64,000 bases of DNA, taken from assembly GCA_022768325.1 (NCBI GenBank), contig JALEMI010000020.1, positions 1-64,000 on the forward strand, read 5' to 3'. The notes below the pieces were generated by a model that saw nothing but the letters and a program-made list of their open reading frames with translations, had not been told where the DNA came from and did no database searches. Position 1 is the first letter of the stretch; the number at the start of each line of letters is the position of its first letter. Shown piece by piece: positions 7,552 to 14,503 of this stretch. The position numbers and the translations under genes were made by a program. Source of the DNA: Bacteroidales bacterium (GTDB taxonomy: Bacteria > Bacteroidota > Bacteroidia > Bacteroidales > Marinilabiliaceae).

Positions 7552-8343
7552 CTAAATGTTGGGCGTCAGGTCTCCGTTGGAGGTGGGGATGACCGTCTCG
7601 ACCTCCTTGAAAAGGAAAGTGCGGCGTTCGGCGTGGGCTGTCTCAAGGGTGAGCCGGCCATCGGGGGCCACACTGACGATGCGCGCGGAGAAACGGGAAT
7701 CGGGCGTGGCGAAGAGATGGAAACAGCCATCGGCGCGGTAGAGAGCCGCCCAATAGTCGCTCATAACCTGGCTATCGAGCCCTTGCGAGACGGCATAGAG
7801 ACGAAGGCGCAGCGCGAGGATGAGGCTATCGGCAAGCGGGGCGACAGGCGTGTCGGCACCCGTCAGGAGCTTCACGGAGACGGGATTTGGCGCATGGCGG
7901 AAGAGCGTCTGATTGACATTTAGCCCTACGCCGACAATGGAACTCGCGATGAGACGCCCGCTGAGCTGATTCTCGACAAGGATGCCGCAAATCTTGGAAT
8001 CGCCCACGTAGATGTCGTTGGGCCACTTGACCTTCAGGACTTTGCGCGCGGAGTGGGGCAAGAGCGGGGCGAGAACGTCGCAGACAGCGAGCGCGACGGC
8101 CATGGAAATCATGAACTGGCGCGACACGTCGCATTGGCACGGGTGGAAGATTGTGGAGAAGAGCAAATTGGCACCCGCCTCACTCTCCCAATGATTGCCC
8201 ACCTGCCCGCGGCCCGAAGTTTGGAAATCGGCTACGACGGACGTGAAATCGGCCTCGGCCTGCCCATTGAGGGCCATCTGCCTGAGGACATCGGACGTTG
8301 ACGACGTCTCAGCCAGATGGACAATATTGGGGCGGAAGGTCAT
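7552..8343 (-). CDS. birA: biotin--[acetyl-CoA-carboxylase] ligase
   Basis: '[27 protein letters not shown]', '[23 protein letters not shown]'. Confidence 0.9.
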
Positions 8344-9485
8344 AGGGCGCCTTTGGTGGAGGGGAGTTGGAAATTCTCGATGTCTCGCGCCTTAGCCATC
8401 TTGATGGAGCGGGCGAGGGCCTTGAAAATTCCCTCAATCTTATGATGCTCGTTTTGGCCTTCGGCCTTGATGTTGAGATTCATCATTGCGGCATCGGAGA
8501 GGCTCTTGAAGAAATGGAGGAACATCTCGGTGGGCATATCGCCAATCTTCTCGCGGTTGAACTGCGCATCGAAGACGAGCCACGGGCGGCCACCGAAATC
8601 GATGGCCACTTGGCAGAGGCAATCGTCCATTGGGAGGCAATAGCCGTAGCGGGTTATTCCGCGCTTGTCGCCGAGGGCCTTTCGGAGAGCCTCTCCGAGG
8701 GCGAGAGCCGTATCCTCGATTGTGTGATGCTCGTCGACATTGAGGTCGCCGTGAACCGTTATGGAGAGGTCGGAGGCGGAGTGTTTGCCGATTTGCTCAA
8801 GCATGTGGTCGAAGAATCCGAGGCCAGTGTTGATTTGGCACTTGCCCGTGCCGTCGAGGTCGATTTTGACATCGATATCGGTCTCCTTGGTTGTGCGTCG
8901 CACTTGGGCGCAGCGTCGGCCGGCGTAGAGAATCTCGGCCACCTGGTCCCACGACTGGACGTATGAGACGCGATCGTCTGGGACATCGGGGACGCGTGCG
9001 GAGAAACTGTTATTGGGGTCGCGGCTCGTGACGGCGGGATTGGCGAGGATTATGGCTCGGCATCCGAGATTGCGGGCCAATTGGGCGTCGGTCTCACGGT
9101 CGCCGATGACGTAGGACTCGTCCATATTGACCGAGCCGTCGGTGTAGGCGGTGAGCATACCTGTTCCTGGCTTGCGGCAGGGGTGGTTGTCCTCGGGAGT
9201 GTGGCAATCGATGAACTGGGTATCGAACGTCACGCCCTGACCGGCGTAGGTATCCATGATGAACTTATGGAGACGGTCGAAGATGTCTTGGGGATAGGCA
9301 GGCGTCCCGAGGCCATCTTGATTGGACACGAGCGCGAACTCGAAATCGGTATGCGAGCGGATGAAAGCGAGATTTCGGATTGCTCCTGGGACGAACTCGA
9401 TGTCGTCGTAGGAGCGGATCTCCTCGGATGGGGGCTCCTTGATGAGCGTCCCGTCACGGTCTATAAAAAGAACTCGTCTTGGCAT
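8340..9485 (-). CDS. hisB: bifunctional histidinol-phosphatase / imidazoleglycerol-phosphate dehydratase
   Basis: HAD motif [14 protein letters not shown] motif '[16 protein letters not shown]...[17 protein letters not shown]'. Confidence 0.96.
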
Positions 9486-9500
9486 TTTTTTCTGAATTGA

Positions 9501-11840
9501 CTAAAGAGCCTGGAGAGCGTTGAAGACCTCGTCGTTCTCGGCGGGAGTGCCAATGGTGATGCGGATGCAATTGGCACAGAGCGTTACCCGATGACGGTTT
9601 CGGGTGACGATTCCCATTGCGAGAAGGTTCTTGTAGATACGCGTGGAATCGTTGAAATGGACGAGAATGAAATTGGCATCGGAGGGATAGATCCCTTGAA
9701 CCGTGGGGAGGGAGGTGTAGGCTTGGGCCATACGCGCCCTCTCGGCAATGATTGTCCGGACGTGATCCTCCTTCTCGGCCACATTGTCAAGCGCCTCGAC
9801 GACACGCGCCTGGGTGAGGCAATTGACGTTGTAGGGGTACTTGACATTTTGGAAAAGCTCGATGATTTGCTCGGACGCGAAAGCGAGACCGCATCGGACG
9901 CCAGCGAGGCCCCATGCCTTGGAGAAAGTCTGAAGGACAATCAGGTTGGGATAATTGGCGAGTTGCGTGAGCCAGGACGGCTCGGAGGCGAAATCGATGT
10001 AAGCCTCGTCGATTACGACAATGCCACGGAAAGACTCGATGACGCGTCGGACTTGCGCCCTGTTGAGGAGATTTCCCGTCGGGTTGTTTGGGGAACAGAG
10101 CCAGATGACCTTTGTCTGCGCATCGGCAACGGAGAGCAGCCTATCGGCGTTGAGCGCATAGCCGGGGTCGAGATTTACCGTACGGTACTCGACATCGTTG
10201 ATGTCGGCCTGGACGCGGTACATACCGTAGGTAGGCTCGATGGCGACGACATTGTCGACACGCGGGCGGCAGAAGATGCGGTAGATGAGGTCGATAGGCT
10301 CGTCGGAGCCATTTCCGAGGACAATTTGGCTCTCGGAGACGCCCTTCATTACGGCGATCCGCTTCTTGATCTCGAGCTGAAGGGGATCGGGATAGCGGTT
10401 TACGCCGTTGTTGTAGGGACTCTCATTGGCATCGACAAACACCTTGGCTTTGCCCTTGAACTCGGAGCGAGCGCAGGAATATGGTTTGAGCGCGGCGATG
10501 TTGGGACGGACCAGGCGACGGGGATCGAAATCGGGCTTGACCTCCGTGGGGATGCGCTTCTCGACCTCTTGGCGGCGGAAACGCATGGCGGCCTCGTGCG
10601 CAGTGAGTTGCTCATTGCGGGCCATGACCTCGACCGTCTTGGCGAGATTGCGGACACCCTCGGGCGTAATCTCCTGGTAGGTCATCTTCTTGCGGAAGCT
10701 GTCGAGATTGACACCGTTGTAGGCGTGGGCATAGCCGCTGGTGGGGAGGGTGTGGTTGGTACCGCTGGCGTAGTCGCCGGCACTCTCGGGAGTGTAGTGG
10801 CCGAGGAAGAGAGAGCCGGCGTTACGGATTTGGTCGGCAATGGTGCGCGGGTCGGCAGTCTGGATGATGAGATGCTCAGGGGCGTACTCATTGGTGATGT
10901 CGATTACCTCGTTGAGGTCGCGCACGACGATGATTTTGGAGTGTTCGAGGCTCTTGGTTGTCAGCTCGCGGCGGCTCAGCTCATCGAGTTGACGCTCAAC
11001 CTCGCTGTTGACATCTTGTGCGAGGTCGGGCGAGGAGGTGATGAGGAGCGCCTGGCTATCGGCACCGTGTTCGGCTTGGCTCAGCAAATCGGCGGCCACG
11101 AAGCGGGGATTTGCCGTCTCGTCGGCTATGACCTCGACCTCGGAGGGACCGGCGGGCATATCGATGGCCACCTGGCTGAGGCTGACAATCTGCTTGGCGG
11201 CCGTGACGTATTGATTGCCTGGGCCGAAAATCTTGTAGACGCGGGGCACGGACTCCGTTCCGTAGGCCATGGCGGCGATGGCTTGGACGCCGCCAATCTT
11301 ATATAGTTTTGAGACGCCGGCCACCTTGGCAGCATAGGCCACGATGGGATTTACCGTGCCATCGGGGCGCGGGGGCGTACACATGACGACCTCGGGGCAC
11401 CCTGCGAGCTTGGCGGGGAGGGCGAGCATCAGAACCGTGGAGAAGAGGGGGGCTGTTCCGCCCGGGATGTAGAGACCCACCTTGTCGATGGGGACAGCCC
11501 TTTGCCAACAGCGGACGCCTGGCGTTGTCTCGATGCTTGGGAGGGGGGTGTCTTGCGCCGAGTGGAAAGCGGCGATATTGTGTGCGGCTGTTACAATGGC
11601 ACTGCGCAGCTCATCGTCGACCTGGGCATCGGCGGCGGCGAACTCGGCATCGGAGACGAGGAGGGAATCGAGATTGGCGTGGTCGAACTTGGCCTCATAT
11701 TCGCGGACAGCGACATCGCCGCGTGCGCGGACATCGTCGATGACGGCGGAGACGGTGGACGTGAGAGAGGAATTGTCGAAGTGCGGTCGGGTGAGGATTT
11801 GCGCCCATCGCTCTTTATCGGGGAACTGGATTATTTCCAT
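9501..11840 (-). CDS. hisDC: fused histidinol dehydrogenase - histidinol-phosphate aminotransferase
   Basis: Single 779-aa ORF: HisD ('YIPGGTAPLFSTVLMLALPAKLAGC', 'GPGNQYVTAAKQIV', 'DMPAGPSEVEVIADE') then HisC ('RPNIAALKPYSCARSEF...VFVDANESPYNN', 'FSKAWGLAGVRCGLAFAS'). Confidence 0.93.
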   Translation of the reverse strand: MEIIQFPDKERWAQILTRPHFDNSSLTSTVSAVIDDVRARGDVAVREYEAKFDHANLDSLLVSDAEFAAADAQVDDELRSAIVTAAHNIAAFHSAQDTPLPSIETTPGVRCWQRAVPIDKVGLYIPGGTAPLFSTVLMLALPAKLAGCPEVVMCTPPRPDGTVNPIVAYAAKVAGVSKLYKIGGVQAIAAMAYGTESVPRVYKIFGPGNQYVTAAKQIVSLSQVAIDMPAGPSEVEVIADETANPRFVAADLLSQAEHGADSQALLITSSPDLAQDVNSEVERQLDELSRRELTTKSLEHSKIIVVRDLNEVIDITNEYAPEHLIIQTADPRTIADQIRNAGSLFLGHYTPESAGDYASGTNHTLPTSGYAHAYNGVNLDSFRKKMTYQEITPEGVRNLAKTVEVMARNEQLTAHEAAMRFRRQEVEKRIPTEVKPDFDPRRLVRPNIAALKPYSCARSEFKGKAKVFVDANESPYNNGVNRYPDPLQLEIKKRIAVMKGVSESQIVLGNGSDEPIDLIYRIFCRPRVDNVVAIEPTYGMYRVQADINDVEYRTVNLDPGYALNADRLLSVADAQTKVIWLCSPNNPTGNLLNRAQVRRVIESFRGIVVIDEAYIDFASEPSWLTQLANYPNLIVLQTFSKAWGLAGVRCGLAFASEQIIELFQNVKYPYNVNCLTQARVVEALDNVAEKEDHVRTIIAERARMAQAYTSLPTVQGIYPSDANFILVHFNDSTRIYKNLLAMGIVTRNRHRVTLCANCIRITIGTPAENDEVFNALQAL

Positions 11841-11860: not shown

Positions 11861-12730
11861 TTAGAGAATCATCTTCTCGATAGGCATGACGAGGATGCCC
11901 TCGGCACCGAGCTGCTTAAGCTTGCCGATAATCTCCCAGAAGTGCTTCTCCTCGATAACAGAGGCTACGGAGCTCCAGCCGGACGTCTCCAGGGCCGTGA
12001 CCGTGGGGGCTTTGAGACCGGGGAGGAGCTTGGCGACCTCGGGGAGCTTGTCGGTCATGATGTTGAGGACGATGTACTTCTTGCCCTCGGCGTTTTTGTA
12101 GGAATCGAAGCGGAAGATAATCTCGTCGAGAATATCCTTCTTCTCGGCGGAGAGGGCCTTATTGCCGATGAGGATGGCCTCGGAGCGCATGACGACCTCG
12201 ACCTCGATGAGGTTATTGCTGACGAGCGTAGAGCCCGAGCTGACGATGTCGAAAATGGAATCGGCGAGGCCGATGCCTGGGGCGATTTCGACGGAACCCG
12301 TGATGACGTGGACATCGGCGGAGATGTTGTTGGCCTTGAGGAAGCGCTTGAGGATGCCCGGGTAGGAGGTTGCGATTCTCTTGCCGTCGAACCACTTGAG
12401 GCCTTGGGCTTGATAGTCGGCCTCGAAAGCCTTGGGGATGGCGAGGGAGAGGCGGCACTTGCTGAAATCGAGCCTCTTGACGATTACGGCATCCTCTTGC
12501 CTCTCCTCGAACTCATTCTCGCCGACAATGCCGACATCGGCGATGCCGCTTGCGACAGCCTGTGGAATATCGTCGTCGCGGAGATAGAGAATCTCGACGG
12601 GGAAGTTCTTGGCGGGGACGAGGAGTGTCCGTTTGCTTTGCTCGACCTTGATGGAGCTCTCGGCGAGCATGGTCATTGTTTCTTCGAAAAGTCGTCCTTT
12701 GGTTTGGACCGCGATGCGGAGTGTAGTCAT
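11861..12730 (-). CDS. hisG: ATP phosphoribosyltransferase
   Basis: MTTLRIAVQTKGRLFEETMTML...; start after the leader terminator. Confidence 0.95.
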   Translation of the reverse strand: MTTLRIAVQTKGRLFEETMTMLAESSIKVEQSKRTLLVPAKNFPVEILYLRDDDIPQAVASGIADVGIVGENEFEERQEDAVIVKRLDFSKCRLSLAIPKAFEADYQAQGLKWFDGKRIATSYPGILKRFLKANNISADVHVITGSVEIAPGIGLADSIFDIVSSGSTLVSNNLIEVEVVMRSEAILIGNKALSAEKKDILDEIIFRFDSYKNAEGKKYIVLNIMTDKLPEVAKLLPGLKAPTVTALETSGWSSVASVIEEKHFWEIIGKLKQLGAEGILVMPIEKMIL

Positions 12731-12772
12731 TGTATGGATATGAGATTTTGTTTTATCGGAGAATAAGAAAAA

Positions 12773-12806
12773 GAGGCTCACCCAGCGCCTTAGCGGGGTG
12801 AGCCTC
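12773..12806 (-). terminator. intrinsic terminator (attenuator) upstream of hisG
   Basis: Perfect 11-bp stem GAGGCTCACCC/GGGTGAGCCTC followed on the minus strand by TTTTTCTTATT, between the promoter and hisG ATG. Confidence 0.9.
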
Positions 12807-12866
12807 GTGAAGTTCTTGCTATTTGAAGTTTTTTGTCCTCGTTGCTTAAATCTTCCCGGTTTGGCA

Positions 12867-12947
12867 TTAGAGCCGCTCCCCCGCCGTCATCTGGTGATGA
12901 TGGAGGTAATGATGTGCGACGTGATGTACGGAAAGAGAGAGTTTCAT
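12867..12947 (-). CDS. hisL: his operon leader peptide, 26 aa with 7 His
   Basis: Minus-strand ORF ATG...TAA = MKLSLSVHHVAHHYLHHHQMTAGERL, located between promoter and attenuator terminator. Confidence 0.88.
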   Translation of the reverse strand: MKLSLSVHHVAHHYLHHHQMTAGERL

Positions 12948-12972
12948 TATGCCAATTTTACTGCTTGACGTT

Positions 12973-13003
12973 CAAAGGTAAACGGAATAATTTACTTATG
13001 CAA
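12973..13003 (-). promoter_or_regulatory. Bacteroidetes-type sigma-ABfr promoter of the his operon
   Basis: TTG - 20 nt - TACCTTTG on the minus strand, matching the TTTG/TAnnTTTG consensus spacing. Confidence 0.75.
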
Positions 13004-13110
13004 GAATTTTTGAAGTGGGGGGGATAGGGGGACGAACTGGCGATCTACGGACGAGGAGAGCCGCCGCGTGTGTGTGTGGTCGGGGGGGGAGATGAGGGGC
13101 GTGCGATCTA

Positions 13111-13201
13111 CGGCCTGGCACACCCGCTGCTGCTCTTTCGGCCTGGCACAGCCGCTGCGCGTGTGTACCAGGTTACTGAAGGTATGGCCCTACGGGCCAG
13201 G
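13111..13201 (+). repeat. interspersed hairpin repeat, copy A
   Basis: CGGCCTGGCACACCCGCTGC... units plus terminal GCGTGTGTACCAGGTTACTGAAGGTATGGCCCTACGGGCCAG module; same module at 45.6, 45.8 and 54.1 kb. Confidence 0.85.
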
Positions 13202-13275
13202 CATGGGTTGGGACGGGGGGCTTGACGAAAGGTGCGTGTGTGTGTCGGGGGAGTGCTGGCGGGGGCATGAAAAAA

Positions 13276-13323
13276 ATCACTTGGGCTTTGAACGGATCTT
13301 TGTCGGTTCAAAGCCCAAGTGAT
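13276..13323 (-). terminator. intrinsic terminator of the arg operon
   Basis: 17-bp stem TCACTTGGGCTTTGAAC/GTTCAAAGCCCAAGTGA followed by T-tract on the minus strand. Confidence 0.85.
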
Positions 13324-13372
13324 GGGTGGCTAAACATGGCGTTTAGCCTAAATGAGTGTCGCTATTGGCGAG

Positions 13373-14503
13373 TTACTTTCCGCTAAAGACCTCGTCGAGA
13401 GCCTGGAGGAAGATGTCGGCCTCGGTCTTGGTGAGGCAGAGGGGCGGGAGGATGCGGACCATGTTCTGCCCCGAGACACCCGTGAAGATGTGCTTCTCGA
13501 AGAGGAGTTTTTGGCGGATTGGCGAAACTGGCTCATTGAACTCGATGCCAATCATGAGGCCACGGCCGCGGGCGGTCTTAATCTTGTCGCTCTTGGGGAG
13601 ATTCTCGAGGATGTATTGGCCGACAGAGGCGGCGTTTTGCTCAAGATTCTCATTGGCATAGACATCGGCGACGGCACTTGCGGCGGCCATGCCGAGGTAA
13701 TTGCCTCCGAAAGTGGTGCCGAGCATACCCTTGACGGCCTGGAACTCAGGGCTGATGAGGACTGCACCGACGGGGAAGCCATTGGCGATGCCCTTGGCCA
13801 TGGAGATGAGGTCGGGCTTGATGCCGGCGTACTGGTGGGCGAAGAAGCGGCCTGTACGGCCGTAGCCGCTCTGAATCTCGTCGAGGATGAGGACGGTGCC
13901 GTGGGCGTGGCAGAGAGCGAGGAGGTCTTGGAGGAACTTATCGTCGGGGATGTTGATGCCTCCGCAGCCTTGGATGCCCTCGATGATGACGGCGGCGATG
14001 TCGTTCTTTTCGACGTATTGAGCTACGGACTGGAGATTATTCAGCTCGGCCCAGCAGACTTGGTGCTGGAGGTTGAAGGGGGAGTTGATCTTAGGATTGT
14101 CGGTTACGGCGACAGCACCGCTTGTGCGGCCGTGGAAGCTCTTCTTGAAGGCGACAACCTTGGAGCGACCCGTGTGGAACGATGCGAGTTTGAGGCAATT
14201 CTCGTTGGCCTCGGCACCGCTGTTGCAGAAAAACGAGGAGTATTCGGGGAGGCCGCTGAGCTGCCCAATCTTCTGAGCGACAGTAGCCTGGAGAGGGTTG
14301 ATGACGCTGTTGGAGTAGAAGGCGATATTGTTGAGCTGGTCGGTGATGGACTTGATGTAGTGTGGATGGCTGTGGCCAATGGAAATCACCGCGTGCCCGC
14401 CGTAGAGGTCGAGGTACTCAGTACCCTTATCGTCCCACACCTTGCAGCCTTTGGCCTTGGCGGGGATGACATCGAACAGGGAATATACGTCGAAAAGATT
14501 CAT
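13373..14503 (-). CDS. argD: acetylornithine/succinylornithine aminotransferase-like class III aminotransferase
   Basis: 'GTEYLDLYGGHAVISIGHSHP', 'ILDEIQSGYGRTGRFFAHQ'; arg operon context. Confidence 0.9.
   Translation of the reverse strand: MNLFDVYSLFDVIPAKAKGCKVWDDKGTEYLDLYGGHAVISIGHSHPHYIKSITDQLNNIAFYSNSVINPLQATVAQKIGQLSGLPEYSSFFCNSGAEANENCLKLASFHTGRSKVVAFKKSFHGRTSGAVAVTDNPKINSPFNLQHQVCWAELNNLQSVAQYVEKNDIAAVIIEGIQGCGGINIPDDKFLQDLLALCHAHGTVLILDEIQSGYGRTGRFFAHQYAGIKPDLISMAKGIANGFPVGAVLISPEFQAVKGMLGTTFGGNYLGMAAASAVADVYANENLEQNAASVGQYILENLPKSDKIKTARGRGLMIGIEFNEPVSPIRQKLLFEKHIFTGVSGQNMVRILPPLCLTKTEADIFLQALDEVFSGK

Follow-up and report, generated by a model that had tools for sequence, protein, structure and literature searches.

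A probable leader-peptide attenuator ahead of the histidine operon in a Bacteroidales genome, with counterparts across the Bacteroidota

The question raised by this locus is whether the DNA ahead of hisG in a gut Bacteroidales bacterium holds a ribosome-mediated transcription attenuator, a principle that is well known, and indeed a matter of textbooks in the Proteobacteria, whereas its branch in the Bacteroidota, a major phylum of the gut, the soil and the sea, has hardly been described. The window, by which we mean the whole stretch of 64,000 nucleotides that was analysed, comes from a 2.72-Mb draft genome whose nearest named relatives are Bacteroidales MAGs, mainly from the herbivore gut, labelled Bacteroidales, Marinilabiliaceae, Salinivirgaceae or Paludibacteraceae. 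A sequence-only reading of this DNA had proposed an attenuator of the enterobacterial type upstream of hisG; comparison with related loci indicates that the leader is very probably a real and anatomically complete classical attenuator, one of a Bacteroidota set that is widespread but little described.

The genes at stake lie on the minus strand. The hisG gene (11861-12730, with its ATG at 12730) encodes the long form of ATP phosphoribosyltransferase with HisG_C (PF01634 and PF08029) and is followed by a hisD-hisC fusion of 779 aa (9501-11840), whose profile matches correspond to histidinol dehydrogenase (PF00815, residues 17-422) and a histidinol-phosphate aminotransferase-like domain (PF00155, residues 477-776), then by hisB (8340-9485; HAD-like phosphatase and imidazoleglycerol-phosphate dehydratase, PF13242 and PF00475) and by a gene for a birA-like biotin protein ligase (7552-8343; PF03099). 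The profiles bear out the identities that had been given to these four genes, while the accompanying claim of their common control leans on spacing: the gaps are short (20 nt, 15 nt and then a 4-nt overlap), so that a single operon and co-transcription of all four are likely, and the overlap of its start with the end of hisB makes birA a probable member. A word search of one superphylum-wide survey of his genes, in which hisIE and hisNB fusions are treated, found no hisD-hisC fusion, and a second His leader with a terminator was sought at the two hisA/hisF loci of the same genome and not found.

All the elements that had been proposed, from the promoter down to hisG, were recovered at their positions on the minus strand. 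A Bacteroidetes-type promoter (12973-13003), in which TTG (13003-13001) is separated by 20 nucleotides from TACCTTTG (12980-12973), probably sets the transcription start at about 12967; TAnnTTTG-like elements also stand ahead of the leader ORF in many relatives. The leader-peptide ORF, MKLSLSVHHVAHHYLHHHQMTAGERL (12867-12947), recognised from its sequence and its conservation, has 26 codons, seven of them for His (codons 8, 9, 12, 13, 16, 17 and 18), and ends in a TAA stop at 12869-12867. Codons 22-25 contain the putative antiterminator segment, or segment 2, GCGGGGGAGC (12884-12875), which can form 10 base pairs, with one bulged A at 12799, with segment 3, GCTCACCCCGC (12803-12793), that is, the 5' arm of the terminator and the start of its loop. 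This pairing had been drawn correctly, bulge included, and its energy of -24.3 kcal/mol stands out against dinucleotide shuffles (p = 0.005). The intrinsic terminator itself, or 3:4 helix (12768-12806; -25.5 kcal/mol), consists of a perfect 11-bp stem formed by GAGGCTCACCC (12806-12796) and GGGTGAGCCTC (12783-12773) around a 12-nt loop, followed by TTTTT (12772-12768). To these parts, folding of the whole leader free of ribosomes adds a predicted protector helix (1:2; 12861-12955) that was absent from the sequence-only reading, in which TTGGCAT (12955-12949) would pair with ATGCCAA (12867-12861), and a part of the ORF rich in CTCTCTT with GGGGGAG, thereby sequestering segment 2 when no ribosome is present; against shuffles this helix reaches p = 0.08.

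Whether such an arrangement accompanies hisG elsewhere had been set as the test by which the proposal might be refuted, and the proposal withstood it. Regions upstream of hisG were gathered from the family, order, class and phylum and condensed into a set of 231 distinct sequences; a His-clustered short ORF (at least four His in nine codons) occurs in 183 of these 231 Bacteroidota regions, and in 168 it is followed by an intrinsic terminator 5-75 nt past its stop codon. In the order sample, which is almost wholly one genome per family, 34 of 46 regions have the ORF and 33 have both ORF and terminator. For controls we used a stricter search, limited to 400-nt upstream regions and to terminators within +80 of the stop codon, which matches 153 of the 231 real regions and none of their reverse complements (0/231), of downstream DNA (0/150) or of five shuffled sets; it likewise finds nothing in 318 tiles of the window, missing the window's own leader too because that terminator ends at +94, beyond the limit of +80, and is found when the limit is widened. 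A chance origin of the ORF-terminator arrangement is excluded. The peptides themselves are diverse (for instance MNALHHHHHHHTDD, MTNCIHHHHHLNLQTR, MFNTKHHHNHHHYQR and MFINQLHHHHFHYCSQAMC), and differences as wide as these mean that what is conserved is the His run and its place, not the peptide.

Within the window's own genus, six loci (L004, L006, L007, L008, L009 and L011) have hisG upstream DNA without any clear His leader, and several of these leaderless relatives have a TAnnTTTG-like promoter near hisG. A recent loss of the attenuator probably accounts for them, and since some relatives so close do without a leader, the attenuator is dispensable. The Prevotella records that we examined yielded no leader with a terminator.

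The alternative pairing was compared across the same leaders. For each one we computed how well the 5' arm of the terminator can pair, at best, with the region past the first His codon. Segment 2 pairs with its own arm at a mean of -13.77 kcal/mol and with arms swapped in from other leaders at -10.26 kcal/mol (permuted sd 0.17), the lowest of 10,000 permutations being -10.91 kcal/mol; with one leader kept per arm sequence (n = 81) the means are -13.15 and -9.59 kcal/mol. Because every combination is equally free to find its best site, the swap tests co-evolution. Taken singly, the 5'-arm pairing is significant (p < 0.05) in 130 of 177 leaders and not in the other 47. Arm type and segment-2 type change together as well: 14 of 15 GCTTATCC arms are accompanied by GGATRRG, 74 of 89 GCTTRCC arms by GGTRRG, and all 11 CGTTTGAG arms by CTCRRRC. 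That segment 2 might as a rule pair with the 3' arm of the terminator was considered and rejected, as such pairing stays overall at chance level (median z -0.3, against -2.8 for the 5' arm).

Covariation was counted on an ungapped composite of 28 leaders anchored at the stop codon and the GCTT motif, since a MAFFT alignment of the leaders was too gappy for counting pairs. In this composite, pairing in the antiterminator helix stands at 90%, 22 cells show a double change and the covariation score is 0.359 (0.246 when shuffled, at most 0.117 when slid); these 28 members were picked by the predicted end of the site, which leans mildly towards pairing, a bias of which the swap test is free. The terminator helix scores 0.350 against 0.199 shuffled, and the leader stop codon, be it TAG, TAA or TGA, falls inside the antiterminator helix. 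Pairing of the protector type reaches p < 0.05 in 53% of leaders, with 84% overlapping segment 2, and in the relatives the His codons often pair with a GRTGnTGTG-like element that adjoins or overlaps segment 2; there is moderate support, from these sequences, for regarding this pairing as the natural protector.

How the structures would be placed relative to a translating ribosome was also as the sequence-only reading had supposed, namely masking at the stop codon and freedom at a His stall, which follow from masked folds in the window and from geometry only in the relatives. Among leaders with a significant antiterminator, the median site is fully covered by a ribosome that has the stop codon in its A site, and in every one of them the distance from the first His codon down to the site exceeds 13 nt, which keeps it clear of a ribosome standing there. 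In the window, masking His codons 8 to 18 in a transcript extended to the terminator loop gives the antiterminator, and masking the stop codon gives the terminator. Folded without a ribosome, the full transcript forms the protector helix plus the terminator, and the transcript extended only to the loop prefers the antiterminator, which makes the protector step the least certain. At full length the terminator always beats the antiterminator at equilibrium, and the switch must therefore be kinetic, as in other attenuators.

Taken together, the His-rich ORF, the intrinsic terminator and the covarying, mutually exclusive antiterminator are the features of the leader-peptide class, and we consider it highly probable that the his operon is governed by a ribosome-mediated transcription attenuator; its function, its switching dynamics and its response to histidine we infer from comparison. 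RNA polymerase would start at about 12967 and a ribosome would enter the His-rich leader ORF. With ample charged tRNA-His, the ribosome would reach the stop codon and cover segment 2 (12884-12875), leaving the terminator 5' arm free, so that the hairpin at 12806-12773 would form and transcription would end before hisG. With scarce charged tRNA-His, the ribosome would stall at an upstream His codon and leave segment 2 exposed, which would pair with the 5' arm of the terminator the moment the latter is made, and the resulting antiterminator would let polymerase continue into hisG, the hisD-hisC fusion, hisB and probably birA. Were no ribosome loaded, the 5' leader would pair with segment 2 as the protector helix, and termination would be the default. 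An attenuator of this kind predicts that ribosomes travel close behind RNA polymerase in Bacteroidota, and would explain the probable means by which many members of the phylum tune histidine synthesis; the phylum-wide covarying set opens the mechanism to direct tests in laboratory strains.

Other readings of the same DNA must be weighed against this evidence. The hairpin might simply end an arg operon lying upstream and the His-rich ORF be a chance frame, given that an argD-like class-III aminotransferase gene (ending at 13373) and an argC-like gene precede it on the same strand, and that the terminator scan lists none on that strand in the gap between, its 8-nt loop limit missing the studied hairpin as well. 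Yet the hairpin stands some 570 nt past the argD-like gene and behind a promoter of its own; the order of ORF, terminator and hisG is found again at 168 of 231 loci; in several Paludibacteraceae the ORF and terminator lie together about 600 nt away, before another gene that precedes hisG; and the negative controls rule out a chance frame. We regard this explanation as very improbable, and we think hardly better of the idea that a riboswitch, a T-box or a protein-bound RNA senses histidine or tRNA-His directly, with translation of the leader being irrelevant. Firmicutes do have His-related T-boxes (PMC2965389, PMC9413887), and the locus does have a lengthy leader that can adopt an alternative fold. 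What is conserved here, however, is an open frame that carries a run of His codons and ends in a stop codon, while the peptide around the run varies freely, and the position of the antiterminator follows that of the stop codon; no Rfam family, the T-box included, matches the window or 14 relatives at the gathering score.

It could also be argued that the leader works mainly by translational or Rho-dependent attenuation, through exposure of the hisG start or of a Rho site, instead of through an intrinsic terminator. In seven distant loci (L143, L147, L148, L149, L155, L157 and L246) a His-containing ORF lies 70-110 nt before hisG with no recognisable intrinsic terminator, and these loci possibly do use one of those two modes. 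In the window and in 168 of the 231 regions, however, an intrinsic terminator is present, with covariation between its 5' arm and segment 2, and as an account of the window's leader we give this explanation very little credence.

Against known systems the closest comparison is with enterobacterial hisL, represented in Rfam by RF00514 (His_leader), where the HisL peptide of E. coli has 16 residues with seven contiguous His codons, alongside an attenuator stem (PMC10989985). The two share an operon that starts with hisG, a run of His codons and the logic of terminator and antiterminator, with a protector that is predicted here; they differ in that the Bacteroidota antiterminator segment sits inside the last part of the ORF or spans the stop codon, in that a single antiterminator helix here takes over the role of the BC and DE stem-loops, and in that the promoter in the window is of the Bacteroidetes type. 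RF00514 (gathering cut-off 49 bits) has no match at the window's leader and, over 31 genomes of the family, none above the cut-off and no sub-threshold match at hisG; Rfam as a whole, searched at E <= 10, gives only chance-level matches at the window's leader.

The remark that no experimentally characterised his attenuator was known to its author from the Bacteroidetes stood, insofar as we found none in the open-access literature and only a few predictions, but the territory was not wholly blank. In 2021 a structured 5' element before hisG was reported in Flavobacterium psychrophilum, conserved in Flavobacteriaceae and without an Rfam match, in a transcriptome map that offers clues to leader-peptide attenuation at amino-acid operons (PMC9723704); it concerns the same phylum and the same gene, and no test of a hisG antiterminator is described in those parts of the paper on which we draw. 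Its counterpart in our set is probably the group of CCCGTTTGAG terminators with CTCAAGCG segments (L129-L146). For Bacteroides thetaiotaomicron there are general remarks on sORFs in long 5' UTRs (PMC7366714). Outside Proteobacteria and Actinobacteria, the only groups in which leader-peptide systems had to their knowledge been shown by then, Naville and Gautheret added the bacilli in 2010, with His leader peptides before hisZ/hisS* (PMC2965389); these share with the present leaders a His-codon ORF and a terminator, but belong to another phylum, serve other target genes and presumably arose independently.

The Bacteroid-trp RNA (RF01692), a predicted cis-regulatory RNA of a Bacteroidetes amino-acid operon (Weinberg 2010, PMC2864571), concerns tryptophan where the present leader concerns histidine; it has no match at the window's leader and none in the same genome at E <= 0.1. 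The best two sub-threshold matches to this model in relatives (L253 and L254, near position 1520) contain Trp-rich short ORFs with WWW, MGICFCNNNWWWQTSYLTSGR and MTNLMNNTWWWHWLFLK. These hint that the window's family makes broader use of leader-peptide attenuation, and the Rfam model seems to miss relatives there.

Beyond what had been proposed for the window, the comparison thus adds spread across the phylum, the stop codon inside the antiterminator in a subset, tandem leaders and an apparent lineage that pairs with the 3' arm. Two complete His leader/terminator units stand in series before hisG at 17 loci, 14 from the same family (L018, L019, L020, L023, L024, L026, L030, L031, L211, L212, L216, L224, L229 and L234) and three from other families (L182, L190 and L204), and such copies offer a natural test of what serial attenuators do to dynamic range. 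The tandem attenuators of Salmonella mgtCBR answer different signals. Our literature search on tandem attenuators, which brought up that Salmonella case (PMC3641672), found no case of two units serving one amino acid. Where the terminator is of the GGTTTGCA type (within L180-L191), leaders depart from the usual pairing: segment 2 gives a combined p of 0.61 with the 5' arm and, over eight leaders, of 1.6e-5 with the loop and 3' arm. In L180, L181, L182 and L191 it resembles the terminator 5' arm, and in L181 TTTTGCAGTGC pairs with GCACTGCAAA at z -6.1. A variant geometry, with antitermination through the loop and 3' arm, is possible for these sequences, and L040-L051 exhibit the same trend without reaching significance.

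It is conceivable, though we would put it at somewhat less than an even chance, that the Bacteroidota have a his-attenuator class of their own, unrelated in sequence to that of the Proteobacteria, widespread in the order, with the stop codon inside the antiterminator in a subset, with tandems that arose repeatedly as two-step switches and with a lineage that captures the loop and 3' arm in place of the 5' arm. If this were true, it would point to tight coupling of transcription and translation in a phylum whose translation initiation is mostly of the non-Shine-Dalgarno kind.

Two smaller observations concern the surroundings of the leaders. Between the argD-like gene and the his promoter, positions 13020-13330 of the window are oddly C-rich, low-complexity intergenic DNA with repeated GTGCCAGGCCG pieces. 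In eight relatives (L060, L061, L063, L072, L074, L075, L078 and L081) the his leader and its terminator lie about 600 nt upstream of hisG with another gene in between, possibly for a thioesterase, which may have been drawn into histidine control.
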